From the NCBI RefSeq assembly GCF_019249725.2, contig NZ_CP137559.1, positions 353,501 to 417,500 of the forward strand: a DNA stretch of 64,000 bases, read 5' to 3'. Origin of the DNA: Segatella hominis. GTDB lineage: Bacteria > Bacteroidota > Bacteroidia > Bacteroidales > Bacteroidaceae. Made by a program: the position numbers and the translations under genes. Below the pieces are notes generated by a model, which worked only from the letters and a program-made list of their open reading frames with translations, was not told the origin of the DNA and made no database searches. Positions 1 through 12,549 of the stretch are shown piece by piece; positions within the stretch are counted from its first letter, which is position 1, and the number at the start of each line of letters is the position of its first letter.

Positions 1-590
1 CCAGGGTTAGTGATGACTTCCACCGACTTGATGTTGTCGGAATGCAAACGGTCCAGCTCGCTCTTGTCTCTCATCTGTCGTCCATTGATATAGATAACAG
101 GCTCACCGCGACCGAATACCTTGATGCTGCCATTCTGGGCAGACACGTTAGGGATGCGGTCGAGCAGGTTCTCCATGGTTCCTGCCTTCTCAAGTACGGA
201 TCCGACAATGGTTGTTGTCATTCCGCCATTCTTCAGGATAGTCTTAGGCAGGGATGACTTCACGACAACTTCGCCGAGCATCTTACTGTCTTCTTCCATC
301 TTGATAATGCCCACATTCTCACCTGTGCAATCCTTGCAGATTGTCTTATAGCCTACGGATGTCACCTTGATGATTCCGCCGTTGCAGGAAGAGTCGATGA
401 CAAAGCTGCCATCTTCTCCACTCACTGCGCCCTTGACGAAAGCCGAGTCTGTTCTATTCAATAATACTACATTGGCAAGCGCCAAAGGTTCTCCCTTGGT
501 ATTCATCACCTTGCCGATGATATTCTGTGCCATCATCGGAGTCATAGCCGAGAGGCACAACGCTGTGGTAAAAATTACTTTTTCCTTCAT
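1..590 (-). CDS. TonB-dependent receptor-like outer-membrane protein, N-terminal part
   Basis: The reverse strand is open from an ATG at 590 to the window edge, about 196 residues, so the protein is incomplete here. It begins with a signal peptide (MKEKVIFTTALCLSAMTPM, cleavage near AQN), continues with a carboxypeptidase-regulatory-like domain (NIIGKVMNTKGEPLALANV) and then a receptor plug segment (VVVKSSLP, later IYINGRQM and VEVITNPG). This is the layout of the outer-membrane beta-barrel family related to TonB receptors. The barrel lies outside the window. The same plug signature is found in the proteins at 7743, 14099 and 16181. Substrate unknown. Confidence 0.85.
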   Translation of the reverse strand, partial: MKEKVIFTTALCLSAMTPMMAQNIIGKVMNTKGEPLALANVVLLNRTDSAFVKGAVSGEDGSFVIDSSCNGGIIKVTSVGYKTICKDCTGENVGIIKMEEDSKMLGEVVVKSSLPKTILKNGGMTTTIVGSVLEKAGTMENLLDRIPNVSAQNGSIKVFGRGEPVIYINGRQMRDKSELDRLHSDNIKSVEVITNP

Positions 591-628
591 ATTGCTACAG
601 TTTTGCTTGATTCTTTATTTTTCTGCTG

Positions 629-636
629 CAAAAGTA
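629..636 (-). promoter_or_regulatory. -7 box TACTTTTG for the receptor-like gene
   Basis: CAAAAGTA on the + strand reads TACTTTTG on the minus strand, about 40 nt before the ATG at 590. It matches the Bacteroidetes TAnnTTTG element. No TTTG is seen at 19-21 nt upstream, which would fit a promoter needing an activator. Confidence 0.6.
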
Positions 637-660
637 TAGCTTTATATGAAAAAGCCTTTG

Positions 661-712
661 ACACAAAAGTGTATTTCTCAAGAGTGCGGCTTAAGAATTA
701 CACTTTTGTGTA
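661..712. promoter_or_regulatory. Paired palindromic operators upstream of the receptor-like gene
   Basis: ACACAAAAGTGTA (661-673) and TACACTTTTGTGT (699-711) are perfect inverted copies. Each is itself palindromic (ACAC-AAAA-GTGT), which suits two binding sites for one dimeric regulator better than a simple stem. The centres are 39 bp apart and the nearer copy begins 24 nt upstream of the -7 box at 629-636. The pair could instead form a terminator for the ATPase gene that ends at 776. Confidence 0.45.
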
Positions 713-775
713 TAAAAAGAAAGAATAGATAGCGCCTGGTGATAGGGGATAAATAAGGTAAAAGCATTTTTTATC

Positions 776-2341
776 TTATGCTTTTTCGATTACCCAATTT
801 TCGATATTCCCAGTTTTACTGTCGAAGTTGATGCCGACCTTGGTTATTGGCTTGCCGCTTAGCGCAAATCGTTTGTGATAGTTCTTCAGGTTGATTTGCT
901 GCATTGCAGACTTCGCGCTCCTGTCCAGCTTAATCTCCAACAGGAAAAGGTCTGTATGGGTGAGCAATACGATGTCAACTCTGCCGTTGGGTGTATGAAC
1001 TTCAACGTCCACCTGATAGTCTGTAAGCAGAGAGAATATGATGAAGAGCATCTGCTGGTAATGTCCCTCATAATGAGCGTTGTTGCAGTAAGGAACAGTT
1101 CCCAGGAATGTTTGGAGTAAGGTTAATGCCTCCTCCATATTCTGCTTATCCAATGCCTGTGCGATACGACGGGCTGTATTGGTTGTTGCAAGCGTATTCT
1201 GTGTGACGTATGATGGAATCAGTGCCTTGGTCAGTCCCATTTTTACCTCCTTGTTAGGAACATCAAGAACGTAATAGTTGTAGTCTTCATGATATTCCTT
1301 GATGGTGATATATCCACTTTGGTAAAGCAGCGGCATGATGGTTGGCATATTCTCCGTAGGAGCATCAAACTCACTGGCATCAGCCTCCACTCGGGTGATG
1401 ATATCTGTAGGAACTACTTGATATTTGCGCATCATATTGATGAGATAAGTTGGAGTGCCGGAAGTAAACCAATAGGATCCGAACTTGTTTTCTGCAAAGC
1501 AATTCAGCAGGCTATATGGATTGAAGATATCGGGTGAGAATCTTGTGAAATGATAGCCGTCATAATTCTCTTTTAACTTGTCGATGACTTGTTCTTTCGT
1601 TATGTTTCTTCTTCGGGCAAGTTCGTCAATATCTTCCGACATCTGCATCAGAAGTTCTTCTTTGGTGATGCCACAGATACCAGCATAATCATCATTCATG
1701 GATATGTTGGTGATGTTGTTCAGTTCGCTGAAGATGCTGACTTGCGAGAACTTGGTGATGCCTGTCAGGAAGACAAAGCGTAGTTTAGCTTCGCTGAATT
1801 TCAGAGGACTGAAGAAGTTGCGCATGATATTGCGCAAGGTATCTAACTGTTCTTGCTCGTGAGCCACATCCAGTATGGGCGCATCATATTCATCAATAAG
1901 CACGACTACCTGTTTTCCGGATTTCTCGTATGTAGTATTGATCAGTTCTGTCAATCGGTTATTGGCATCAATTTGTGGCTGTGTGATACCCCATTTCTTT
2001 TCTTCTGTTTCCAGTATGAATGCGAGATATCTCTCCAGCTGTTCTTTATTCATGTGTTTGCCTCCGCTCAAATCAAAGTGGAGCACAGGATATTCTGTCC
2101 ACTCCTTTTCCAGCTTTTCGATGGCAAGACCATTGAATAAGTCTTTCTTGCCTTCAAAGTAACTCTGGAGGGTGGTGAGAAACAGGGATTTTCCAAAGCG
2201 GCGTGGACGTCCCAAGAAGAAATAGGTACCGCTGGTGTGCGTCAGGCGGTAAACGTATTCCGTCTTGTCGATATAGAGCTTGTTTTCCTTGCGGATTCGC
2301 TCGAAAGTCTGTATGCCTAATGGATATAACTTAAGTGCCAT
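776..2341 (-). CDS. AAA-ATPase-like / PD-(D/E)XK nuclease family protein
   Basis: A 521-residue protein of a family very common in Prevotella and Bacteroides. The N-terminal ATPase-like domain shows a Walker A-like GRPRRFGKS near residues 44-52 and a Walker B-like VVLIDEYDAPI near 145-155. The C-terminal nuclease-like domain has D...(x)n...ExK (VDIVLLTHTDLFLLEIKLD, about residues 455-472), as in the PDDEXK_9 group. The real cellular role of this family is not established; links to mobile or defence functions are often suggested. A -7 box TACATTTG lies at 2375-2368. The reading frame is intact. Confidence 0.85.
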   Translation of the reverse strand: MALKLYPLGIQTFERIRKENKLYIDKTEYVYRLTHTSGTYFFLGRPRRFGKSLFLTTLQSYFEGKKDLFNGLAIEKLEKEWTEYPVLHFDLSGGKHMNKEQLERYLAFILETEEKKWGITQPQIDANNRLTELINTTYEKSGKQVVVLIDEYDAPILDVAHEQEQLDTLRNIMRNFFSPLKFSEAKLRFVFLTGITKFSQVSIFSELNNITNISMNDDYAGICGITKEELLMQMSEDIDELARRRNITKEQVIDKLKENYDGYHFTRFSPDIFNPYSLLNCFAENKFGSYWFTSGTPTYLINMMRKYQVVPTDIITRVEADASEFDAPTENMPTIMPLLYQSGYITIKEYHEDYNYYVLDVPNKEVKMGLTKALIPSYVTQNTLATTNTARRIAQALDKQNMEEALTLLQTFLGTVPYCNNAHYEGHYQQMLFIIFSLLTDYQVDVEVHTPNGRVDIVLLTHTDLFLLEIKLDRSAKSAMQQINLKNYHKRFALSGKPITKVGINFDSKTGNIENWVIEKA

Positions 2342-2367
2342 AATCTTCGATGTTTATATTTTCACCA

Positions 2368-2375
2368 CAAATGTA
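2368..2375 (-). promoter_or_regulatory. -7 box TACATTTG for the AAA-ATPase-like gene
   Basis: TACATTTG on the minus strand lies 26 nt before the ATG at 2341, a normal position for a Bacteroidetes promoter. Confidence 0.5.
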
Positions 2376-2495
2376 CAATTATTATTTGATATATGCAAAT
2401 AATCAAGCGCTTTTATGTTCTTTAACAATTTTTCGTGCAGTATTCATGCTGGTTTCATATCTATATATGGATAAATTGTGCAAAATAATATACTC

Positions 2496-4214
2496 ATGGA
2501 TTCAAATATACAAACTTTAGTATTTAAAGCAAAACAAGGAGATAATAGTGCTTTCAGCACATTGTATCAGATATATTATCCTAAAATGAAAGGTATATGT
2601 ATCAATATTCTTAAAGAGGACAAGGATGTCATTGATGACCTTGTCCAAGATGCATTTATACTAGCGCTTGTATCTTTGAAAGATTTGAAGAATCCTAACA
2701 GATTCGGTCAATGGCTTACAAGTATAACTTCTAATCTTGCATTAAAATACAAAGAAAAGGGTAATACATTTAGATATATTTCTTTATCAGACATAGATGA
2801 AAGTGTGATTGACAGCTGTGATGATTGTAGAAATACAGTATCTTCTATCCAATACGAGGATATTATGGCTGAAATTGATAAATTACCAGTTGGATACAAA
2901 AAGGTATTCAAGCTTTCTGTGCTAGATGGTTTGTCTCATCAGGAAATTGCAAAGTTGCTTGATATAGCTCCACACAGTTCTTCTTCGCAATTAGCGAGAG
3001 CTAAGGCTTTGTTGAGAAACAAATTGAGCAAGAGAACAATACTAATTATGGTATTGGTTCTCATCATTATTCCTGTATATAAGCAACTTATAACCAAAAA
3101 ACAGCTTATTTCAGAAAATGATACCAATATAACACGCAGACGTAAAATAAAAGGTCCAGTTAGTCCAGCATCAAAGAACGATGTTGACTCTACAAACTGT
3201 ACCCCAAAGCAGAATCCATGTACTCATTATCACAAGATACTAACCATAGAGACTATAGCAGCAATGCGTGATGACACAACGGAAATAAAACATAATATAA
3301 TTGCAAATATAACAGATACATTGCAAGATGAAAAGCAGTTTGCTGTAAATAGAACTGATAGTATCTTGGTAAAAGATTCTATCATCGCCCCTAATCTCTA
3401 TAAGGAATCATGGATTACAGAAAATCTTGAGGTTCACAAAAAGAATAAGTGGCAATTACTGGCTGCAGGTTCTTTGGGTACGACTCTTGTACAGAGTGTA
3501 TGTAAGTTTATGAAAAGTAACGATATTACTAGTGATTTGCCTTCTGGTCCGGACCTGCCAACAGGCCCAACCATCCCTTCAGGGAAGTATTTCACGACAT
3601 GGGAAGACTATGCAAAAGAGCTACATCGCATATCCCAGGCAGACCCTACTACAGAAAATGTAGCCATGGCAGATATTGCAGACCACAATAGTGGAGAAAT
3701 AGTAGAAGTAGAACATCATGACAAGCCAATAACATTGAGCATTGCTGTAAATAAAAACATAGGTAAAAGATGGAGTTTAGAGACAGGACTTCAATATTCT
3801 TATCTGAAATCATATCTCATTCTTGGTACTGGCAGCTATCGTGTTGACAAGGAACAAAAGCTCCACTATCTTGGTGTTCCTTTCAAACTGTCTTATCAAT
3901 TTATGAAGTTCAAGAGATTGTCAACTTATGGTTCTGTAGGCACTGGAATTCTGATTCCTATATATGGAAAAACTGATGCAGATTATATCGTTGGAGATAA
4001 GTCTGCATACACAACAGATTGGAAACTGACGCTCCCGATACAGTGGTCTGTAAATACAAACATCGGAATCCAATATCAGTTTGCACCAAATCTGAATCTG
4101 TTTATAGAACCAACCATGAATTGGTACATTCCGAATGGTAGCTGTATTAAGAATGCTTGGACAGAACGTCCATTCACATTTACCGTTCCGTTTGGAATAA
4201 GGTTCTCTTGGTAA
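2496..4214 (+). CDS. Sigma-70-family factor fused to a membrane helix and an outer-membrane beta-barrel
   Basis: One uninterrupted frame of 572 residues from ATG 2496 (a GTG at 2478 would add six). Numbered from that GTG: sigma region 2 at about 24-95 (DDLVQDAFILALVSLKDL, then FGQWLTSITSNLALKYKEK); region 4 helix-turn-helix at about 130-183 (LPVGYKKVFKLSVLDGLSHQEIAKLL); a single hydrophobic helix at about 187-205 (TILIMVLVLIIIPVYKQL); a polar, probably disordered linker to about 320; then alternating beta strands from about 323 to 578 ending FGIRFSW, with a terminal aromatic typical of outer-membrane barrels. In Bacteroides similar barrels belong to dual-membrane-spanning anti-sigma proteins encoded next to a sigma gene. 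Here the sigma factor itself carries the barrel and no anti-sigma domain is seen. No TAnnTTTG box is visible in the 150 bp upstream. Confidence 0.85.
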   Translation: MDSNIQTLVFKAKQGDNSAFSTLYQIYYPKMKGICINILKEDKDVIDDLVQDAFILALVSLKDLKNPNRFGQWLTSITSNLALKYKEKGNTFRYISLSDIDESVIDSCDDCRNTVSSIQYEDIMAEIDKLPVGYKKVFKLSVLDGLSHQEIAKLLDIAPHSSSSQLARAKALLRNKLSKRTILIMVLVLIIIPVYKQLITKKQLISENDTNITRRRKIKGPVSPASKNDVDSTNCTPKQNPCTHYHKILTIETIAAMRDDTTEIKHNIIANITDTLQDEKQFAVNRTDSILVKDSIIAPNLYKESWITENLEVHKKNKWQLLAAGSLGTTLVQSVCKFMKSNDITSDLPSGPDLPTGPTIPSGKYFTTWEDYAKELHRISQADPTTENVAMADIADHNSGEIVEVEHHDKPITLSIAVNKNIGKRWSLETGLQYSYLKSYLILGTGSYRVDKEQKLHYLGVPFKLSYQFMKFKRLSTYGSVGTGILIPIYGKTDADYIVGDKSAYTTDWKLTLPIQWSVNTNIGIQYQFAPNLNLFIEPTMNWYIPNGSCIKNAWTERPFTFTVPFGIRFSW

Positions 4215-4288
4215 AAAGTCTCTTTTTGCATGCAGTCTTTTTGGCAAATTTGTATCTATATGATAAAAGGTCAAAACATTATATAGAT

Positions 4289-5083
4289 ATGCAGAAAAGA
4301 CATACAGATAGAAAAATGTACTTCCATGACTTGGAAATTACATCAAAAGAGTTTTACGTCAGCTACTTATCAACTTTCAAAAAGTTGACTTCGGAAAGTA
4401 GAGTATTAGAGGTGGGTTGTGGCGAAGGAGGCAATTTAGTCCCCTTTGCCCAACTTGGCTGTAGAGTTACAGGAATAGACATAGCTGAATGCAGAATAAT
4501 AGATGCGAAAGCATACTTTTCGGAAATCTGCGAAAATGCCACATTCGTGTGTTGCGACTTTATGAAATACCATGCGCCAATCAATGAAGAGGAAAAGTTT
4601 GACGTGATACTATTACATGATGTAATAGAACATGTTCCAGCGAAAGGAAAATTTCTGTTACACCTCAAAAGTTTTCTAAAGTCAACAGGCGTTCTCTTTG
4701 TCGGATTCCCTGCATGGCAGATGCCGTTTGGTGGACATCAACAGATTTGCCGAAGCAAACTCTGTTCGCACTTTCCATTCATACATTTGTTACCAAACTC
4801 TATGTATAATTCATTATTGAAACTATGCAAAGAGGAAGAGGGTACTATAAGCGAGCTGATGAGCATAAAAGAGTGCAGGACAAGTATAGAGTTATTTGAA
4901 AAATTGATAAAAAGATGTGAATTCTCTGTTGTTGACAAGAAGTTTTGGTTTATCAATCCTCATTATAAGCAGAAGTTCCAGCTTACTCCATCGCTGTTGC
5001 CTCGTTTTGTTTGGAAAATTAAGTATGCAAGAAATTTCTTCACTACTTCTTGTTGGTACATATTGAATTTGAGCAATACGTAA
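4289..5083 (+). CDS. Class I SAM-dependent methyltransferase
   Basis: 264 residues from ATG 4289. The frame is open back to 4157, but that earlier start would lie inside the sigma-barrel gene. Motif I is clear (RVLEVGCGEGGNLVPFAQLG, then TGIDIAE), followed by CDFMKYH and the motif-IV-like DVILLHDVIEHV, placing it in the Methyltransf_11/23 type of Rossmann methyltransferases. The substrate cannot be read from sequence. It follows the sigma-barrel gene by 74 nt on the same strand, so the two may be co-transcribed; whether it is a functional partner is unknown. Confidence 0.8.
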   Translation: MQKRHTDRKMYFHDLEITSKEFYVSYLSTFKKLTSESRVLEVGCGEGGNLVPFAQLGCRVTGIDIAECRIIDAKAYFSEICENATFVCCDFMKYHAPINEEEKFDVILLHDVIEHVPAKGKFLLHLKSFLKSTGVLFVGFPAWQMPFGGHQQICRSKLCSHFPFIHLLPNSMYNSLLKLCKEEEGTISELMSIKECRTSIELFEKLIKRCEFSVVDKKFWFINPHYKQKFQLTPSLLPRFVWKIKYARNFFTTSCWYILNLSNT

Positions 5084-5202
5084 AAGTAATACTCTCTTGT
5101 AGAGTGATAGAATATAAAAAAGTAAAAAGAGAAATCTCATGCAAGTTTTGAAAACGAGTTGCGTTTATTAATTAGTTATAACCCTTTAATATAAAGAAGC
5201 GT

Positions 5203-6000
5203 ATGAAAATTAGAATGATTCTTATGGCATTAGCAGCTTTGCTCTGTTTGACAAGTTGTAGCGATGATGATTCTGGAATTCAGCTCACTGAAGACGAAGT
5301 AACCGGTGATATAATTACTGGTAAGCAGATTGTTATTAACACTCTTACAACCTATACCGATAGTGGCAGCAAGGTGAATGTTAATGGAGCTAAAGGTAAA
5401 GTATCAGCAACTTCTTCTGATGATAGTGTTGCCAAGGTTTCGTGTTCTTCAAATGAGTCTGAGAAGGAGATATACGTAAGTGGCGTTTCTGAGGGAAATG
5501 CTACTATAACCGTAACCGACTCAGACGGAAACTCTGCTATCTTAAAGGTAGAAGTAAAAAATTGGACTGCCCGTTGGAAGATATATAGAACGATGTATGT
5601 GGTAAATAGAAAATGTTTAGTTGAAGGCGTTTCTTCCGAGGATTCCGCAGCTATCGCAGCCGATGCCATAGAGAACGACAAGTTCTATAAATATTATACT
5701 TTCCGTACTCCTACTAATAATCCTTTTGGTGTTATAACCAAAAGACTTACCATAACTGACAGTGAAGGAAATACTCGTATGGAGGGAGTTCTTAACATCC
5801 AACAAAATGCTGATAATACAGAAGTTTGGTATTTGTTGCCTTTCAAAGATTATAGAGCAGTTGTCTTGGCTACATTCTATAGTGACGGTGAGAGTATCTT
5901 TAAAGATGTGACAGATAATTATAAGAAGACTTATCCTCACATTAAAAAGGTCGAGCTACAAGCCATTTGTGCAATAGAGGAATTGGAGCCGGACAAATAA
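5203..6000 (+). CDS. Lipoprotein with a bacterial Ig-like (BIG2-type) domain
   Basis: 265 residues. The N-terminus is a lipoprotein signal, MALAALLCLTSC followed by SDDDSG, with Cys about residue 20 as the lipidated residue. Residues about 35-115 resemble a BIG2 domain (SDDSVAKVSCSS, VSGVSEGNATITVTDSDGN). The remainder is not recognised. It would be anchored in the outer membrane, possibly surface exposed. A strong hairpin terminator follows at 6034-6075. Confidence 0.75.
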   Translation: MKIRMILMALAALLCLTSCSDDDSGIQLTEDEVTGDIITGKQIVINTLTTYTDSGSKVNVNGAKGKVSATSSDDSVAKVSCSSNESEKEIYVSGVSEGNATITVTDSDGNSAILKVEVKNWTARWKIYRTMYVVNRKCLVEGVSSEDSAAIAADAIENDKFYKYYTFRTPTNNPFGVITKRLTITDSEGNTRMEGVLNIQQNADNTEVWYLLPFKDYRAVVLATFYSDGESIFKDVTDNYKKTYPHIKKVELQAICAIEELEPDK

Positions 6001-6033
6001 GTAAGAGTGTTTCTTGTAATATTTTTGTGGATA

Positions 6034-6075
6034 AATCCCGAGGAAAGATTTCTAAAGAAACGTTTCCTCGGGATT
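6034..6075. terminator. Bidirectional hairpin terminator
   Basis: AATCCCGAGGAAA (6034-6046) pairs perfectly with TTTCCTCGGGATT (6063-6075) between the convergent lipoprotein gene and the gene ending at 6126. Confidence 0.8.
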
Positions 6076-6125
6076 GTTGTATTTATACAATCCCAAGAAG
6101 CTCGTGAGGATATCTTCAAAGCAGA

Positions 6126-6683
6126 TTAATATGCCCCTAAAACCTTCCAGTCGTCTATGAGTTTGAACAGTCGGGGCATGGCTGGCTTGTAACTGTCGGG
6201 ATAGGTGAGGGAATAAACGAAGAGTATTCTGCCACTCTTGATGAATTTATCGTAATGACTGTAGCCATCTACTCTTACTCCGTTTTCATAGACAGGACCA
6301 GAGAGGATGAATGCCTTATTCGATGCCTGCATCGTCCTTTCCGAATGAAGCTTCTGGGCTAGAGAATCGGCACAAGCCTGGAGGGTATTGCTATAGTTAT
6401 GGGTAACGTAACTCTCCAGGATGATATTGGCATGATTAGTGAATGAGAAGCGGGCATAGCCCTGGTATCCCGATACCGAAGTATCCTCCTGTTGGAAGAA
6501 GCAAGGATATTTGACAACGTAGCCGAAGTCCGGATCATTGTATTCCTTCATGGGTGCCATCTCTACCTTGGTCTTGAAATCCGCCATCGGTGTATGTTTC
6601 TCTTTCGTAATCTCATGGTGATAGTTGATGATGAAATTTATCATCATCAGCAAGACAACTGCTATCAAAAAAATCTTCTTCAT
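6126..6683 (-). CDS. Small membrane-anchored protein of unknown function, target of the adjacent regulator
   Basis: 185 residues from ATG 6683. The upstream in-frame ATG at 6713 overlaps the -7 box at 6718-6711, so it cannot be in the transcript and 6683 is the start. An N-terminal hydrophobic segment (MKKIFLIAVVLLMMINFI) is a membrane anchor or signal peptide. The rest is soluble-looking (DPDFGYVVKYPCFF, GRILFVYSLTYPDSY) and resembles small Bacteroidetes proteins with a PsbP-like fold, though I cannot confirm this. Its promoter carries the same direct-repeat operator as the gene at 7743, so the two are probably co-regulated by the protein at 6777-7550. Confidence 0.75.
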   Translation of the reverse strand: MKKIFLIAVVLLMMINFIINYHHEITKEKHTPMADFKTKVEMAPMKEYNDPDFGYVVKYPCFFQQEDTSVSGYQGYARFSFTNHANIILESYVTHNYSNTLQACADSLAQKLHSERTMQASNKAFILSGPVYENGVRVDGYSHYDKFIKSGRILFVYSLTYPDSYKPAMPRLFKLIDDWKVLGAY

Positions 6684-6710
6684 ATCTTTGCCACTTTTAT
6701 ATTTTAGCAG

Positions 6711-6770
6711 CAAAGGTATGAAGAAGATGGGAAAAAGCCAAATAATAAGTATGACATTTGGCTGACATTT
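6711..6770 (-). promoter_or_regulatory. Promoter with 11-bp-spaced direct-repeat operator
   Basis: On the minus strand: AAATGTCA-GCC-AAATGTCA (6770-6752), then 33 nt, then the -7 box TACCTTTG (6718-6711), with TTTG at 6742-6739 (20-nt spacer). The operator geometry, including the 33-nt gap, is the same as at 7655-7714. Direct repeats with 11-bp period are what PhoB/OmpR-type winged helices bind. Confidence 0.8.
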
Positions 6771-6776
6771 CTGAAC

Positions 6777-7550
6777 TTATCTGATAATCAGTCGGTAAGA
6801 CTTGCCTCTTTCCGACTCAATCATGAGGTTGCTATTCTGCTCAATCACCGGTTTGATACGGCGAATCAAGGTATAGAGCGTTTCGCTGGCATCCGGTTTC
6901 TTGGGCCAAAGAGCATTACAAATCTCCTGTTTGGAGAGTTGATGATGCGTATTGTTGAAGAAGAGTTGCATCAGCTGGTGCTGCATCGGAGTAAACTTGA
7001 TGGCTTGTCCGTTTTCCTGATTGTAGAAGGAATCCTCGTCTTGAGAATAGCACATGGTACCGAACATATCAGCCTCATGATTCCAGGGTTGTTTTCTGCG
7101 ATGATAGTATAGCGATGCAATTGCCCAAATCATAGCCATGAGGGTAAGCGTCAAAGATGTCCGCTGGTTGCTCATACTCAAAACATCTGCCATCGAACAG
7201 TTAGCATAACTTTGGATAGAATGCTCGTTGAGGAGCATCTGTTTGCTGCTGAGCAGGTTGGCGCTATTTACCAGCTGAGAATTGTTCTTGCCTCTTCTTC
7301 TGTCTTCCATCACATAGCAGAGATTACTGGTCGATTTCAGCAGGTCGATGCTGAGATGTGAGCGGTAGCTCTGGATGGTATCAGGCGTAATCCATTGATA
7401 TTTATTTTCCTGAAGAGTCAGAGCCAAAGCTTTGTTCATATCTTGTACAATGGCATACTGTGCCTTGCGGTAGTTGCTCACGCTGGAGAATGCTGCAGAC
7501 ATCACAAGGATGGCGAAGATGAGGATGGAATGATATGCTTTCAACTTCAT
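6777..7550 (-). CDS. Membrane-integrated winged-helix transcription regulator (one-component sensor)
   Basis: 257 residues. A hydrophobic helix at about 8-24 (SILIFAILVMSAAF), a presumed periplasmic sensor region of about 100 residues, a second helix at about 131-148 (LTLTLMAMIWAIASLYYH), then a cytoplasmic C-terminal PhoB/OmpR-type winged helix at about 180-257 (LSKQEICNALWPKKPD, TLIRRIKPVI, IESERGKSYRL). There is no kinase or receiver domain, so signal sensing and DNA binding sit in one polypeptide, with the DNA-binding domain at the C-terminus (the reverse of ToxR). Both flanking genes have promoters with an 11-bp-period direct repeat suited to this domain; one operator lies only 6 bp beyond its stop codon. 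Confidence 0.85.
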   Translation of the reverse strand: MKLKAYHSILIFAILVMSAAFSSVSNYRKAQYAIVQDMNKALALTLQENKYQWITPDTIQSYRSHLSIDLLKSTSNLCYVMEDRRRGKNNSQLVNSANLLSSKQMLLNEHSIQSYANCSMADVLSMSNQRTSLTLTLMAMIWAIASLYYHRRKQPWNHEADMFGTMCYSQDEDSFYNQENGQAIKFTPMQHQLMQLFFNNTHHQLSKQEICNALWPKKPDASETLYTLIRRIKPVIEQNSNLMIESERGKSYRLIIR

Positions 7551-7593
7551 TTTTTATATCGTTTAAATCTGTTACTGTTTAACGAATCAATTG

Positions 7594-7601
7594 CAAAAGT
7601 A
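7594..7601 (-). promoter_or_regulatory. -7 box TACTTTTG for the membrane regulator
   Basis: CAAAAGTA on the + strand reads TACTTTTG on the minus strand, 43 nt before the ATG at 7550. It lies back to back with the divergent promoter of the barrel gene at 7743. Confidence 0.6.
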
Positions 7602-7654
7602 CAGAAATTCAATGAAAGTTGGTGTAAGTTTTGATGTAATTTTCGTTAATTGAT

Positions 7655-7714
7655 AAATGTCAGACTCATGTCAGCCATATTTTTCGCTTCGGTCTTCTCT
7701 TTTTGATACCTTTG
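7655..7714 (+). promoter_or_regulatory. Promoter with 11-bp-spaced direct-repeat operator
   Basis: AAATGTCA-GAC-TCATGTCA (7655-7673), 33 nt, then -7 box TACCTTTG (7707-7714). The -33 position carries TTCG (7683-7686) instead of TTTG, which would fit dependence on an activator bound just upstream. Matches the promoter at 6711-6770. Confidence 0.8.
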
Positions 7715-7742
7715 CAGCAGAAAACAAGTTTTAGAAAAGTAT

Positions 7743-9848
7743 ATGATGACAATGAAGAAAAGTAAATTGTTAACAGCTATGGTGATTCTGTGGGCATTGA
7801 TCTCTTGTGCAGAAATAAGTGCCCAGGAGATTCAGCAGGTATCGAATGATTCTATAGCCTTGCAAGAGGTTGTTGTGAAGGCGGCACGAGTAGTCAACAA
7901 GGAAGATGGCAAGTTGATATTCCCAAGCGATATTCAGAAGCAGCGTTCTTTTTCTGGTTTTTCGCTTTTAGGAAAGTTGGCTTTGCCTCATATCAGGGTT
8001 GATGAGGCTGGCCGTTCCATTTCTGCTACCGATCATAAAGGAGAAGTGCAGATTCGTATCAATGGCATTCTCGCCAATATGCATGACGTGCAGATGCTGG
8101 ATGTAGCTTCTATTATGAGTGTAGATTATATCGACAGTCCTGGCGTAAGATATGGAAAGAATATTGCATACGTGATAGATATTCATACCCGCATGGCTTC
8201 ATCGGGTGGCAGTTTGGGCTTCAACTTGACCAATGCGCTAACTACCAAGCTTGGTTCGAACGATGTCTATGCATCCGTCAACAGAGGCAAGAGCCAATTG
8301 AATATTTTATATGAGCAGACTTATGTGGATAATAAGGCATCCGAATATAATGAGAATGCTCAATATCTTCTACATGATGGTTCTGAGTATCAGATATCTA
8401 GAAAAATCAAGAATGGGGCAACTCAAAATTATGGTAATACATTGCAGTTGAAGTATAATCTGGCTGATTCTGCATTATATGTATTCCAGACAACGCTTAC
8501 CACGGATTTCAGCAATCAGCCTTATACATCGAATGAGATGTGGTTTTCTGAATCTGGAAAGCCTGCGTATCCTGTTTGCAGAACCAGCAAGGGTAGGGAT
8601 TTTACTCCTGCTCTCGATTTGTATTTCTATCATCAGTTGGGCAAGCATCAGTCTTTATCGGCAGATGTTTTGGGCACTTATATCCACACCAAAGGAGCCT
8701 ATTATGAAGGTGAGGGCGAACCCTATCAATATCAGGTAGATGGAAAGACCTATTCGCTCATAGCCGAGGCTATCTATGAAAACCGGTTGAAACCCTTTAC
8801 TTTTTCTGCAGGAACCAACTTGAACTGGAAATATATGGATAATCAGTATTTGGGTGATGTGGTTAGCGAGAATGGTATCCGTTCATTGGGTATTTATGGT
8901 TTTGCACAAATCAAGGGAAGTTTGGGGCAATTCAAGGAAGGAACATCCCGTTTAACTTATGTAGCTGGCTTCGGGTTGAGTAATCAGTCTTATCGACAGG
9001 GAGATGAGGATTTTAGTTTTTGGCTTTGTCGTCCGAAACTCACATTGGCTTATTGCTTGACATCTTCGTTTCAGATTCGCTTGGGAAGTGAATTATCACA
9101 GCATATTTCGCAGATAGCTATGATTTCGGATACCCGTATTCGAAAGAACAGTATGGAATGGACTGTGGGTAATCCTTCGCTTAAGCCTAACAGTAGATAT
9201 GAAAACTGGGTTGCGTTCTCTTTCAGTAAACCAAGGATAAATACTGATTTTACCTTGAATTATCGCATCAATCGTCATTGTGATTTGGCGAAATACACCC
9301 GCACGGAAAATGATCAGTTTCTTTATTCCCAGACGAATCAGCCCCATTGTAATATGTTGTATCTTACGAATGATACCCGGTTTGACATTATTCCCGATCA
9401 CCTTATATTATCTGTGAATGCAGGTATTTACCGTTTTTTCAATAAGGGCGATGAGTACAGTCATTGTTATACCGCTTATAATTATGGTGGAACATTACAG
9501 GGATATTGGGGAAAATGGACTGTGATACTGTATGCTGATAACGGTTGGAACTTTATGGAGGGAGAGCACATCGGGCATAATCCTCCTTCATTGGCAGCCT
9601 CAGCCAGTTATCATATAGGTGATTTCGATTTTACGCTCTATATGCATAATCCGTTTATGGCTCATCCGAAATCCTATTCAGCAGAAATCGTCAACGCCTT
9701 GCTCCGTAAGCAGGTTAGTGGATATGACAATTCGGGAGGTAATTTGTTCCGTATCGGTGTTGCCTGGAATATCAATCGGGGAAAGGAATACCGTAAGATA
9801 CAGCGAAATATCAACAATGAGGAGCGCGAAACGGGTATCTTGAAATAG
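7743..9848 (+). CDS. TonB-dependent receptor-like outer-membrane beta-barrel protein
   Basis: 701 residues. Signal peptide at about 1-27 (LLTAMVILWALISC then AEISAQ), a receptor plug (LQEVVVKAARVVNKEDGKL, about 41-60; IRINGILANMHDVQMLDV; VDYIDSPGVRYGKN), and a long beta-strand-rich barrel. It lacks the carboxypeptidase-like N-terminal domain of SusC proteins and is shorter (SusC about 1000). The start may be the second or third Met (MMTMKKSK). It is divergent from the membrane regulator, and its promoter carries that regulator's likely operator. Ligand unknown. Confidence 0.8.
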   Translation: MMTMKKSKLLTAMVILWALISCAEISAQEIQQVSNDSIALQEVVVKAARVVNKEDGKLIFPSDIQKQRSFSGFSLLGKLALPHIRVDEAGRSISATDHKGEVQIRINGILANMHDVQMLDVASIMSVDYIDSPGVRYGKNIAYVIDIHTRMASSGGSLGFNLTNALTTKLGSNDVYASVNRGKSQLNILYEQTYVDNKASEYNENAQYLLHDGSEYQISRKIKNGATQNYGNTLQLKYNLADSALYVFQTTLTTDFSNQPYTSNEMWFSESGKPAYPVCRTSKGRDFTPALDLYFYHQLGKHQSLSADVLGTYIHTKGAYYEGEGEPYQYQVDGKTYSLIAEAIYENRLKPFTFSAGTNLNWKYMDNQYLGDVVSENGIRSLGIYGFAQIKGSLGQFKEGTSRLTYVAGFGLSNQSYRQGDEDFSFWLCRPKLTLAYCLTSSFQIRLGSELSQHISQIAMISDTRIRKNSMEWTVGNPSLKPNSRYENWVAFSFSKPRINTDFTLNYRINRHCDLAKYTRTENDQFLYSQTNQPHCNMLYLTNDTRFDIIPDHLILSVNAGIYRFFNKGDEYSHCYTAYNYGGTLQGYWGKWTVILYADNGWNFMEGEHIGHNPPSLAASASYHIGDFDFTLYMHNPFMAHPKSYSAEIVNALLRKQVSGYDNSGGNLFRIGVAWNINRGKEYRKIQRNINNEERETGILK

Positions 9849-9884
9849 GTGGCTTTGCTTTCTATATGGGTTGCATGGGCAACA

Positions 9885-9928
9885 GCCGGAATTTATTTCT
9901 TCCCTTTATTGATGATATAAATTCCGGC
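9885..9928. terminator. Hairpin overlapping the end of the EamA gene
   Basis: GCCGGAATTTAT (9885-9896) and ATAAATTCCGGC (9917-9928) are perfect inverted copies. The right arm lies within the last codons of the gene that ends at 9893. It could end transcription from both sides. Confidence 0.6.
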
Positions 9929-10831
9929 AGTAGCCAATGCGCCTGCTATCAGATACTTCCAGTAAAAGGTTTCGCCAAGACAGAGGCAGGAGGTGATGGC
10001 TCCTACTACGGGGATGAGCGAATTGTATATCGCTACCTTTCCTACGGGATTGCAGCTCAATAATTTGTTGTAGAGAGCGAAACTGATGGTTGAGATGGCA
10101 ATGAGCAGCAGAAGGATGGTGATGCCCCAGAGGCTGATGACTGGCAGATAGCCACCCATTAACAATGCGGGAATCACCAGCAAGGCTCCACCGATGCTCA
10201 GCGAATAACCGGTTCCTACGAAAACATCCACTCTCTTGCTCAATCCTCGGGTCAGCAGGGAAGCACTGGCTCCACACAGGGCATTGAGGATAATCATACC
10301 ATCGCCCAGGAATGTGAAACTTCCGCTTTCCTTTCCGCCAAGGTTCAAGGCAAGGATGCCCAGGAAGCCGATGATGCAGCCCAATGCCTTTCGCCACGTC
10401 ATCCTGTCGCTCTTGAAGAAGATGCAGGCAAAGATAACCACCGTGAAGACGCTCATCGAATTGAGTATCGCCGAACGTGCTCCTGCATTATGAGAGAGTC
10501 CGAAATAGAAGAAGGCATAATGAAGGGTGGTGTTGAGGAGTGCATAGAGGAGAAGGAACCAGACATTCTCTTGAACTGCTTTCTTCTTGAATCCGAATTC
10601 GCGATGCGAGCTTCTGGCGATGGCAAGGATGATGATGCCGGAGATGAAGAAGCGGATGCCAGCGAAAAGCATCTTGCTTCCGGTCATGTCTGCTGTAATC
10701 TGATATTCTTCCATTCCCATTTTGATCAATGGGTAAGCCCATCCCCACGAGATCGCAGCCGTAAGGGCGAACAGGCTTACCCATACCGGGCGCTGAAATA
10801 TACTGAGTGTATTTGTTTCTTTCTTTTCCAT
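9893..10831 (-). CDS. EamA/DMT-family inner-membrane permease
   Basis: 312 residues with about ten hydrophobic helices arranged as two repeats: WVSLFALTAAISWGWAYPLI at the start, and a second half beginning near FLGDGMIILNALCGASASLL. This is the drug/metabolite transporter (EamA) pattern. Substrate unknown. It lies 48 nt behind the pyridoxamine kinase gene on the same strand, so it may be the last gene of a three-gene unit with the radical SAM gene. Confidence 0.85.
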   Translation of the reverse strand: MEKKETNTLSIFQRPVWVSLFALTAAISWGWAYPLIKMGMEEYQITADMTGSKMLFAGIRFFISGIIILAIARSSHREFGFKKKAVQENVWFLLLYALLNTTLHYAFFYFGLSHNAGARSAILNSMSVFTVVIFACIFFKSDRMTWRKALGCIIGFLGILALNLGGKESGSFTFLGDGMIILNALCGASASLLTRGLSKRVDVFVGTGYSLSIGGALLVIPALLMGGYLPVISLWGITILLLLIAISTISFALYNKLLSCNPVGKVAIYNSLIPVVGAITSCLCLGETFYWKYLIAGALATAGIYIINKGKK

Positions 10832-10879
10832 TATAACTTAATTGGTATTCCCTTGCTTCTGTGTTTGCTAAATGGCAAT

Positions 10880-11701
10880 CTACAAGTCCCCCAGATGTCT
10901 TTCTATCGGAATACCGCGGTTCTTGTCCTTGTCATCCTTATTGATGTCTATCCAGTTGCGCAGGGTATCCATGGCGATGCGGGTGGCATGGCGAAGATGA
11001 TCGCCATCCTTCAGTCTGCCCACGATGATGCTGGAGAAGATGTCGCCGGTGCCTGGGAACTGAACTGGGATTTCTTCGTAGGGTAGGAGGAAATACTCTT
11101 CTGTAAGATGATTGAAACCTACTACGGCATGCTGACCCTCTACGATGCACGAGGTGATGAGCACAGAGTGGGAACCGATGACTCTCAGTTTATCTATCAG
11201 TTCATAGGCTTCCTTCTCCGAGATTCCCTCTTCCTTGTATTCCGAATCCGTCAGCAGGCAAGCCTCGGTATAGTTGGGAAAACAGAGATGCGATACGCTC
11301 AGCATCTCCTTCATGCATCTCACGGTACTCTCACTGGCTCCACCATAGAGCTTGCCGTAATCGCCCATCACTGGATCCACATAGATGTCGGTGCCCAGTG
11401 CTGCCTGTTCTCTGCAATAACGTGCCACTAACTTCGCCTGACGCTCCGAAGCCATGAAACCCGTGGTGATGGCATCGAAGTGAATGCCCAGTTCGTTCCA
11501 CTTCTGCAAGGCTTCCTCGATATACGAAGTGCATTCCAGAATGGCGTACTTGCCGTATGGGAAGGTATTGCTGATGAGCATGGTGGGCAGATTGAACACG
11601 TCGAGTCCCATATAAGAGAGGATGGGCATCTGAACGGCGGCTGATACCTTACCGTAACCACACATGTCGCTGATAATAAGGATATTACTTTTTGCTTTCA
11701 T
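10880..11701 (-). CDS. pdxY: Pyridoxamine/pyridoxal kinase
   Basis: 273 residues of the ribokinase-like fold. Visible signatures are ILIISDMCGYGKVSAAVQMP at the N-terminus, DIYVDPVMGDYGKLY in the middle and the ATP/anion-hole motif FPGTGDIFSSIIVGRL near the C-terminus with its catalytic Asp. It would phosphorylate pyridoxamine or pyridoxal with ATP in the cytoplasm for B6 salvage. The length matches PdxY-type enzymes (about 280). A hydroxymethylpyrimidine kinase is an alternative but less likely. Confidence 0.8.
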   Translation of the reverse strand: MKAKSNILIISDMCGYGKVSAAVQMPILSYMGLDVFNLPTMLISNTFPYGKYAILECTSYIEEALQKWNELGIHFDAITTGFMASERQAKLVARYCREQAALGTDIYVDPVMGDYGKLYGGASESTVRCMKEMLSVSHLCFPNYTEACLLTDSEYKEEGISEKEAYELIDKLRVIGSHSVLITSCIVEGQHAVVGFNHLTEEYFLLPYEEIPVQFPGTGDIFSSIIVGRLKDGDHLRHATRIAMDTLRNWIDINKDDKDKNRGIPIERHLGDL

Positions 11702-11781
11702 CGTTTTTTTTCTTCTTTCTTTTCTTTGTTCTTCTTTGCTTCATCGCAAGTCTTTAACAAATATCAAATCCTAATTATCTT

Positions 11782-12549
11782 TTAATAAGAGGCTGTACAC
11801 TTGATGCCCAATGCTTCTACTCGTTCCTTGATGGCATCGAGTACTTCCTTTGGTGCCTTTTCCAGCAATTTGTCTGGTGTTTCGCGGGCGATGGTATAAA
11901 CCATTACCTGCTGAGGCTGGATGTCTTTCACTGCCTCCAGCCAAGGAGCTACGAAATGCTCGCTGGTATTGTCCAAACCGTCACCTCTCAGGAACATGGT
12001 CTGGATGATGACGTGCCCCTTGAACATCTTCAGATATTTGATTACATCCTTCACGTCGTAGTTAGGCTGCTGAGGGCGGTCCAGCTTCTTGATGTAATCC
12101 ATATCCACGGTATCCAGTTTCAGGATGTTGTTATCCACGAGCATCAGCGCCTCTCTCACTTCCTCCTTATATATATAGGTGGCGTTGCTGAGTACGGAAA
12201 CCTGTACTCCTGGGAAATACTTCTTGCAGAGTTCCATCGTATCTTCCACGATTCCCTTGAAGTCTGGATGCCCCGTTGGTTCACCGTTTCCTGCGAAGGT
12301 GATGTCGTCCAAAGGCTGGTTGTTGTTGTGGCGCTCTTTCAGAACCTTCTCCAATCCTTCTCTTACCTCCTCGCGGGTAGGGCGCTTCTTCTTAGGACGG
12401 AAGTCGGCGTTGAATCCGCATTCGCAATAAACGCAGTCGAATGAACAGACCTTGCCATCAGATGGCATGAGGTTGATGCCCAATGAAACTCCCAGACGGC
12501 GGGAATTCACGGGTCCGAATATCGGTGATGGATAAATAATCGTTGACAT
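11782..12549 (-). CDS. Radical SAM protein
   Basis: 255 residues with the cluster motif CSFDCVYCE (CxxxCxxC) near residues 35-42 and FAGNGEPTGHPDF further on, the usual SAM-binding GNGEPT of this superfamily. It opens with IFGPVNSRRLGVSLGINLMP, a hallmark of the subgroup annotated simply as radical SAM protein in Bacteroidetes. The reaction is not known. The -7 box TACTTTTG at 12637-12630 probably drives this gene and perhaps the two genes behind it. Confidence 0.85.
   Translation of the reverse strand: MSTIIYPSPIFGPVNSRRLGVSLGINLMPSDGKVCSFDCVYCECGFNADFRPKKKRPTREEVREGLEKVLKERHNNNQPLDDITFAGNGEPTGHPDFKGIVEDTMELCKKYFPGVQVSVLSNATYIYKEEVREALMLVDNNILKLDTVDMDYIKKLDRPQQPNYDVKDVIKYLKMFKGHVIIQTMFLRGDGLDNTSEHFVAPWLEAVKDIQPQQVMVYTIARETPDKLLEKAPKEVLDAIKERVEALGIKCTASY

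Follow-up and report, generated by a model that had tools for sequence, protein, structure and literature searches.

The open reading frame at 2496..4214 (+ strand) of the window, i.e. of the whole 64,000-nucleotide stretch of Segatella hominis DNA analyzed here, is intact and encodes one protein of 572 amino acids in which a sigma factor is joined, via a transmembrane (TM) helix and a polar linker, to an outer-membrane beta-barrel (Dma3-type fusion). We consider it moderately probable that this protein acts as a Dma3-type switch leading from the envelope to the promoter within one molecule, which would be inhibited by its tether, activated by proteolysis and directed at two promoters, P1 and P2. 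Since a sigma-fused Dma protein, Dma3, is already in print, the kind is known and the window protein is most likely its Segatella member. While the architecture has thus been named before, the design seen in the window appears striking, and we propose below how it would act.

Dma proteins follow a plan of anti-sigma binding domain, TM helix, disordered tether and barrel and are encoded beside an ECF21 sigma gene (PMC13088901). The preliminary description of this DNA had assumed that the known dual-membrane proteins carry an anti-sigma domain and act on a separate sigma factor, which is correct for Dma1 and Dma2 but not for Dma3 of B. thetaiotaomicron, where the sigma factor is the protein's own N-terminal domain (Pardue et al. 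2026, PMC13088901, Discussion). In dma1 and dma2 mutants, expression of the dma3 locus (bt_2778-2779) is increased (PMC13088901), and PMC10434189 counts BT_2778 among the sigma-70 family factors. Like the window protein, Dma3 belongs to the Dma family, has an N-terminal sigma domain and lacks an adjacent sigma gene, and its locus holds two genes, as does the unit of fusion and methyltransferase described here. This comparison draws on the published description of Dma3, which stems from another genus (Bacteroides). In the literature on Dma, ECF21, tethered or fused sigma factors and copri, the only sigma-fused Dma protein we found is Dma3 in PMC13088901.

The fusion starts at the ATG at 2496, which is kept together with the subsequent codons in the relative L021 (74-75% identical); an in-frame GTG is also present upstream at 2478. 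Sigma region 2 (residues 2-91; 2499..2768, +) is recognized by Pfam PF04542 (Sigma70_r2, residues 23-88, 2.6e-7) and by the helices of the AlphaFold2 model, and sigma region 4 with its helix-turn-helix (residues 120-177; 2853..3026, +) by PF08281 (Sigma70_r4_2, residues 121-173, 1.7e-12), by AlphaFold2 and by alignments, in which its PHSSSSQL motif is conserved across the family. The TM helix (residues 181-199; 3036..3092, +), delimited by hydropathy and HMM ends, begins about five residues past the end of the region 4 match. It is followed by a polar periplasmic linker (residues 204-362; 3105..3581, +), which is predicted to be disordered with a pLDDT below 50 over most of its length, and by the outer-membrane beta-barrel (residues 404-572; 3705..4211, +), which ends in FGIRFSW and was assigned by AlphaFold2 and Foldseek; the OMP_b-brl match to this part (residues 408-538, 2e-5) falls under Pfam's own cut-off. 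Between the window protein and L021, the linker is the least conserved part (58% identity), compared to 79% for the sigma part and 88% for the barrel.

In the AlphaFold2 model, for which an alignment of 46 fused proteins served as input (mean pLDDT 73.6, pTM 0.45), both sigma regions (residues 2-91 and 120-177) are confident, and the last helix of region 4 extends across the TM segment as one long helix (159-203). Confidence is very low in residues 203-362, save for one short strand, whereas the barrel (approximately 404-572) has pLDDT values mostly at or above 90. Foldseek returns sigmaE, SigE, SigW and AlgU as best matches of the front part and the Dot/Icm porin and the OmpA, Ail and OmpX barrels as best matches of the rear part. 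Among the 25 matches listed for the family alignment against solved structures, there are sigma factors only, and these cover the sigma part only. The preliminary description had read the frame as two sigma regions (2 and 4) followed by a single inner-membrane helix, a long polar linker and a barrel with FGIRFSW at its end, and had suggested structure prediction of the full protein as a check; Pfam, AlphaFold2 and Foldseek bear out this reading, including the C-terminal barrel.

A frameshift, chimera or assembly error, which had been considered for the sigma/TM junction, can be ruled out as the origin of the fusion. Among the best 120 of 1580 matching proteins, 79 have a length of exactly 572 amino acids and 95-99% identity to the fusion, and these 79 proteins show 23 different sequences across residues 171-215. 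Moreover, the same fusion gene is found in S. copri Indica (98% identity), and a homolog with 74% identity is present in a water-deer MAG, from which the source of the window would be S. copri or a species close to it. The same domain order recurs in other genomes, as the preliminary description had suggested looking for: the fused-protein profile matches at E 1e-30 or better in 186 of 299 sampled genomes of the family, and an uninterrupted fusion is present in 72 of the 299, which represent 16 of the 27 genus codes (a hand count). The sigma-fused form is thus not a Bacteroides oddity. The 72 genomes comprise 62 with a single unbroken sigma-to-barrel match, of which those in G271 and G142 begin within the sigma part, and 10 with both parts in one frame, which were confirmed as fused ORFs. 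Three further genomes (G158, G206 and G210) carry the fusion with an internal stop. As at most four candidates were scored per family genome, copy numbers are lower bounds.

In a sample of the phylum (392 genomes, three candidates scored in each), 26 genomes gave a match at E 1e-40 or better; the sole full-length fused match lies in G064, which belongs to the genus of the window, and G062 of the same family has both parts on one contig in separate frames. In the first sample, which covered 60 relatives, the window protein was matched in 14. The open frames of 591 and 607 in G698 and the loci L068-L070 look fused because an open frame runs from stop to stop; they were discarded as fusions, since all of them consist of a sigma and a Dma gene. 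The fused genes of L050 and L060 are interrupted by a stop and retain the -35 word described below upstream. L035, L036 and L037 form a divergent fused group with proteins of approximately 500-550 amino acids whose C-terminal residue is not W, and they lie among large genes with signal-peptide-like starts.

Matches to the barrel alone belong mostly to two-gene systems, in which a sigma gene (mostly approximately 180-200 amino acids) is followed by a gene for a protein of approximately 400-450 amino acids. The latter consists, in this order, of an N-terminal domain of about 40 amino acids, a TM helix, a linker and a barrel, and in many cases the N-terminal domain carries the motif W..xxRxRMxDYSEPxPxxLWxxLE. 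For 31 distinct split Dma-like genes, with L006, L050 and L060 (fragments or interrupted fusions) and L079 (frame unclear) set aside, the sigma gene lies directly upstream in 28, at an offset of -7 to +16 nt; for the remaining three, it is 185 nt away in one and none was detected in two. In the split locus of G057 the neighbor is a NigD-like lipoprotein. Judged by their domain and gene order, these split systems match the published Dma plan, from the anti-sigma domain, TM helix, disordered tether and barrel to the sigma gene alongside. The pairs Dma1/Das1 and Dma2/Das2 of Bacteroides share the succession of TM helix, disordered tether and barrel with the fusion, and the split relatives built on their plan share with it a homologous sigma factor, a homologous barrel and the same -35 word. 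In Dma1/Das1 and Dma2/Das2, however, the sigma factor (ECF21) and the anti-sigma factor are separate proteins, whereas in the window protein the sigma factor is covalently attached and the anti-sigma domain is absent.

This absence was evaluated on all ORFs with both sigma and barrel among the fetched loci, i.e. 109 fused ORFs representing 92 distinct proteins. An anti-sigma HMM built from 30 split N-termini matches 33 of 33 split ORFs tested, which, given its origin, is no independent test; its silence on the fused proteins is one. None of the 109 fused ORFs gives a match below E 1, the best scores (E 11) being those of the window protein and its Indica copy. Four of the 37 barrel-only ORFs, which lack a TM helix or are over-long, are outside the 33 scored. 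An anti-sigma domain hidden between region 4 and the TM helix is likewise ruled out, by the silence of the HMM and by the spacing of the two elements: a TM helix was called in all of the 92 distinct fused proteins except L126, and in these 91 it starts at most 6 residues downstream and at most 4 residues upstream of the end of the region 4 match. By these measures the anti-sigma domain is absent throughout the fused set and the sigma factor occupies its place, just as the preliminary description had it. Inhibition, if there is any, would thus come from tethering or from the rest of the chain.

The relationship between the two forms was assessed with quick, unrooted trees of 45 fused proteins and 21 split pairs, which were left of 87 and 29, respectively, after thinning at approximately 72% identity. 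In the sigma tree, which contains these two kinds only, the fused sigma domains make up one side of a branch (SH-aLRT 98), and the window sigma domain groups beside the sigma factors of split dma-like pairs. The barrel tree, in which several branches are long, needs two changes, and a single fused group is not rejected (p-AU 0.80). A single fusion event would be compatible with both trees. Homologs are not always two separate genes, a possibility raised earlier; both forms exist, and the fused sigma factors form one group. The split form is probably the older one, as it is more widely spread, although the trees themselves are unrooted. L075 and L076, in which a split sigma and Dma gene are followed by a homolog of the window methyltransferase, appear to provide a telling link between the split and the fused form, and in L075 the same promoter word stands before the sigma gene and before the methyltransferase gene.

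Upstream of most fused genes inspected, one conserved block stands out. In the window, a pattern search places this putative ECF-type promoter of the fusion gene, P1, at 2436..2466 (+), with the -35 element TGCAGTATT, a 13-nt spacer and the -10 element TATCTATAT. P2 (4231..4261, +), with the -35 element TGCAGTCTT, again a 13-nt spacer and the -10 element TATCTATAT, starts 16 nt past the stop codon of the fusion and 58 nt ahead of the ATG of a methyltransferase gene. The preliminary description rightly stated that the region upstream of the fusion has no TAnnTTTG box (2342-2495, + strand), but the unusual expression it derived from this does not hold in view of the ECF-type promoter at 2436-2466. 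The two-part pattern TGCAGTNTTN{11,15}TATCTAT (TGCAGTnTT N11-15 TATCTAT) has two matches in the 64 kb (2436 and 4231) and none in 100 shuffles; since it was drawn from these same sequences, the shuffles gauge its rarity and do not amount to an independent prediction. The word TGCAGTCTTTT alone, with one mismatch allowed, is not rare (4 occurrences in the window vs 1.99 expected), so that the evidence lies in the two-part pattern. In the 3.9-Mb genome of S. copri Indica, the zero-mismatch sites (spacer 11-15) are the same two only. With a 13-nt spacer, Indica has no site with one mismatch, one with two and 33 with three mismatches, compared to 9 sites in all for a reversed control pattern; this excess of three-mismatch sites may include weaker targets or be an effect of base composition. 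Given that only P1 and P2 match in Indica at up to one mismatch, the sigma domain probably reads these two sites and thereby activates the fusion gene as well as the neighboring one. The repetition of the ECF-type promoter before the next gene points to self-activation.

Of 87 distinct fused genes, 59 have TGCAGTNT (TGCAGTnT) in the 250 nt before their start (expected, 0.04 each). In the other 28 the word is absent within 250 nt of the called start; several of these have it inside an over-long ORF call or one base off, and in others none was seen. It also precedes 22 of 36 sigma-only ORFs, including the interrupted fusions L050 and L060 and the probable truncated fusion L017. Of 91 fused loci, 44 have both P1 and a second copy up to 420 nt past the fused gene, and the stretches searched in the remaining 47 contain the first copy only (25), the second only (12) or neither (10). 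The -10 element varies by group (TATCTATA, GGACTATA, CTCCTTTTAA, TATCATATA), and the -10 elements of the two promoters of a locus agree at a mean of 8.49 of 12 positions vs 6.61 in shuffled pairings (sd 0.22, maximum 7.40 of 2000). This test on 43 loci includes near-copies (L061-L064, and the window and L020), and the agreement may partly be due to shared descent. In 5 of 33 split loci (L071, L074, L133, L135 and L137), the -35 word lies before a gene with both NigD Pfam domains, as expected if this is the Das promoter, Das1 being reported to raise nigD1 (PMC13088901, Discussion). In the literature on Dma, ECF21, tethered or fused sigma factors and copri, which was queried by subject and not by the letters of the motif, we came across no account of the TGCAGT promoter. 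In L028 and L029 a promoter copy precedes a gene for a lipoprotein-like protein of 444-445 amino acids upstream of the fused gene, and in L035 it precedes a 324-aa gene two genes ahead; with the promoter before an upstream gene, these loci may be operons in which the fused gene is not the first one.

The gene behind P2 (4289..5083, +) encodes a class I SAM-dependent methyltransferase (Pfam Methyltransf_31/23/11) and is a probable second target of the sigma domain. Homologs of the methyltransferase occur in 37 of 109 fused loci vs 2 of 37 split loci, as fetched. On its other side, the fusion adjoins an AAA-ATPase-like/PDDEXK_9 gene (776-2341, - strand; PF09820, PF08011); L038 and L069 contain genes whose N-terminus resembles that of this gene. 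With these two genes as neighbors, no cognate sigma gene adjoins the fusion, and the sigma profile matches no other ORF in positions 1-12000 of the window. The methyltransferase is followed by a lipoprotein-like gene (5203-6000, +), for which Big_2 and pilus-domain matches are the sole ones over the cut-offs and before which there is no TGCAGTnTT site; on both grounds we rejected it as a NigD-like output of the kind seen with Dma1. In other fused loci (L025, L026, L030, L032, L033 and others), the promoter copy is followed by other genes instead of the methyltransferase, encoding either lipoprotein-like proteins of approximately 190 amino acids or a radical-SAM/SPASM protein and then a GFO/IDH/MocA protein (domains checked in L030). 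Perhaps one switch has several outputs across the fused groups. Further downstream in the window, the product of the gene at 6777-7550 (-) is a possible membrane-bound transcription factor, with hydrophobic stretches and, at its C-terminus, a winged-helix domain (Trans_reg_C, 3e-10). The gene is divergent from a 701-aa gene (7743-9848) of outer-membrane-protein-like character; homologs of this pair lie near the fused gene in L031, and a homolog of the 701-aa protein alone is found in L032 and L009, which represent the same genome region.

From the architecture, the missing anti-sigma domain, the kinship to das-dma-like pairs and the two matching promoters, all of which can be read directly from the DNA, we infer the following course of events. 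An ancestral pair of a das-like ECF sigma gene and a dma-like gene directly after it would have fused in frame, and the anti-sigma domain would have been lost, so that the sigma factor became bolted onto the inner-membrane helix of the former anti-sigma protein. With the barrel in the outer membrane and the disordered linker spanning the periplasm, the whole protein would hold its sigma domain at the inner membrane with little or no activity. A signal at the barrel or tether would then open the periplasmic part to a protease, after which an S2P/RseP-type protease would cut within the membrane and free the sigma domain. The latter would bring RNA polymerase to P1, i.e. to its own gene in a positive feedback, and to P2, with the methyltransferase as the output. 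Against this course speak the 28 of 87 fused genes without the -35 word and the 47 of 91 loci that lack one or both promoter copies in the stretches searched, as well as the methyltransferase homolog, which was found in about one third of the fused loci only.

We favor tethering with regulated release because region 4 runs directly into the membrane, because an S2P-family protease is present and because IutY, the nearest tested precedent, is freed by Prc and RseP. The second of these reasons says little, since M50 proteases are encoded not only in S. copri Indica, where an M50/S2P-family protease was found, but in all 14 control genomes. A proline in the TM helix might favor S2P cleavage; it occurs in 58 of 92 fused TM helices, is absent in 34 and occurs in 12 of 33 split ones, and we rejected it as a mark of S2P substrates since it does not discriminate. 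IutY of P. putida is a membrane-bound sigma factor that is processed by Prc and RseP to a free sigma domain (PMC5411451, PMC8999054). As in the fusion, a single chain comprises an ECF sigma domain together with a periplasmic part bound to the membrane. Its activation by proteolysis is published there, whereas for the fusion we propose it, and it serves cell-surface signaling with a separate outer-membrane receptor, whereas the fusion has the barrel in the same chain. In ECF48/52/53 of Actinobacteria (e.g. SCO4117), as in the fusion, the sigma factor is joined to a C-terminal membrane part, and activation by proteolysis is predicted; unlike the fusion, they have a zinc-finger domain of the anti-sigma type and no outer-membrane barrel (PMC8999054).

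The preliminary description had named proteolytic release and action at the membrane as the two routes open to such a protein, and both are still live at the level of a proposal. In the latter case, the sigma factor would work while tethered, in a ToxR-like manner: RNA polymerase would be drawn to the inner membrane and P1 and P2 transcribed there with no need for cleavage, the barrel or tension on the tether altering the accessibility of the sigma domain. This would suit the fact that neither a cleavage site nor a dedicated protease gene was identified and that the candidate promoters flank the gene, so that the DNA could be near the nascent membrane protein. Little room would be left for the polymerase, however, by a region 4 helix that is continuous with the TM helix (159-203) and by the close spacing of the two elements in 91 of 92 fused proteins (region 4 end from 6 residues before to 4 residues past the TM start), and IutY, the closest tested precedent, is released by proteolysis (PMC5411451). 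We thus regard action of the tethered sigma factor as unlikely. It is likewise improbable that this clade does without any anti-sigma factor and that one molecule, as sensor, tether, positional inhibitor and sigma factor, relays a state of the outer membrane to RNA polymerase, possibly while it spans both membranes and draws the polymerase to the inner membrane at the two gene-side promoters.

We deem it quite unlikely that the sigma domain is no longer functional and that the protein serves chiefly as outer-membrane tether or as competitor for another sigma factor. Activity is reported for no fused protein in the sources cited here, deletion of dma3 in B. thetaiotaomicron left the altered gel profile of the OMV fraction of dma1 and dma2 mutants unreverted, and its authors call for more work on the role of Dma3 (PMC13088901). 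A loss of function is, however, at odds with ten sigma-part residues (F54, L64, W73, L130, P131, H148, I157, S162, L166 and A169) that are invariant in 46 fused proteins with whole-protein identities to the window protein of 26-76%, with 46 silent vs 37 replacing codon differences between the sigma parts of the window and L021, and with the matching promoter pair kept with many fused genes. We give the least credence to an ordinary Dma anti-sigma protein whose target is another sigma factor and whose own N-terminal sigma domain came as an add-on. The barrel is homologous to split Dma-like barrels, and TM helix and linker come in the same order, but the anti-sigma domain is missing from 109 of 109 fused ORFs and an extra sigma-only ORF is present in 1 of 109 fused loci (L106), with flanks of unequal length.

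In conclusion, a tether-inhibited switch that is activated by proteolysis would connect the outer membrane with the promoter by a very short route. To the published Dma3 architecture, the present analysis adds the lack of the anti-sigma domain in all fused ORFs examined, the one group formed by the fused proteins and its distribution, and the paired promoters. The promoter word shared by fused and split systems may allow the targets of both to be read from genomes, and the circuit of two promoters would provide a clean read-out, at P1 and P2, of how dual-membrane Dma proteins sense and signal.
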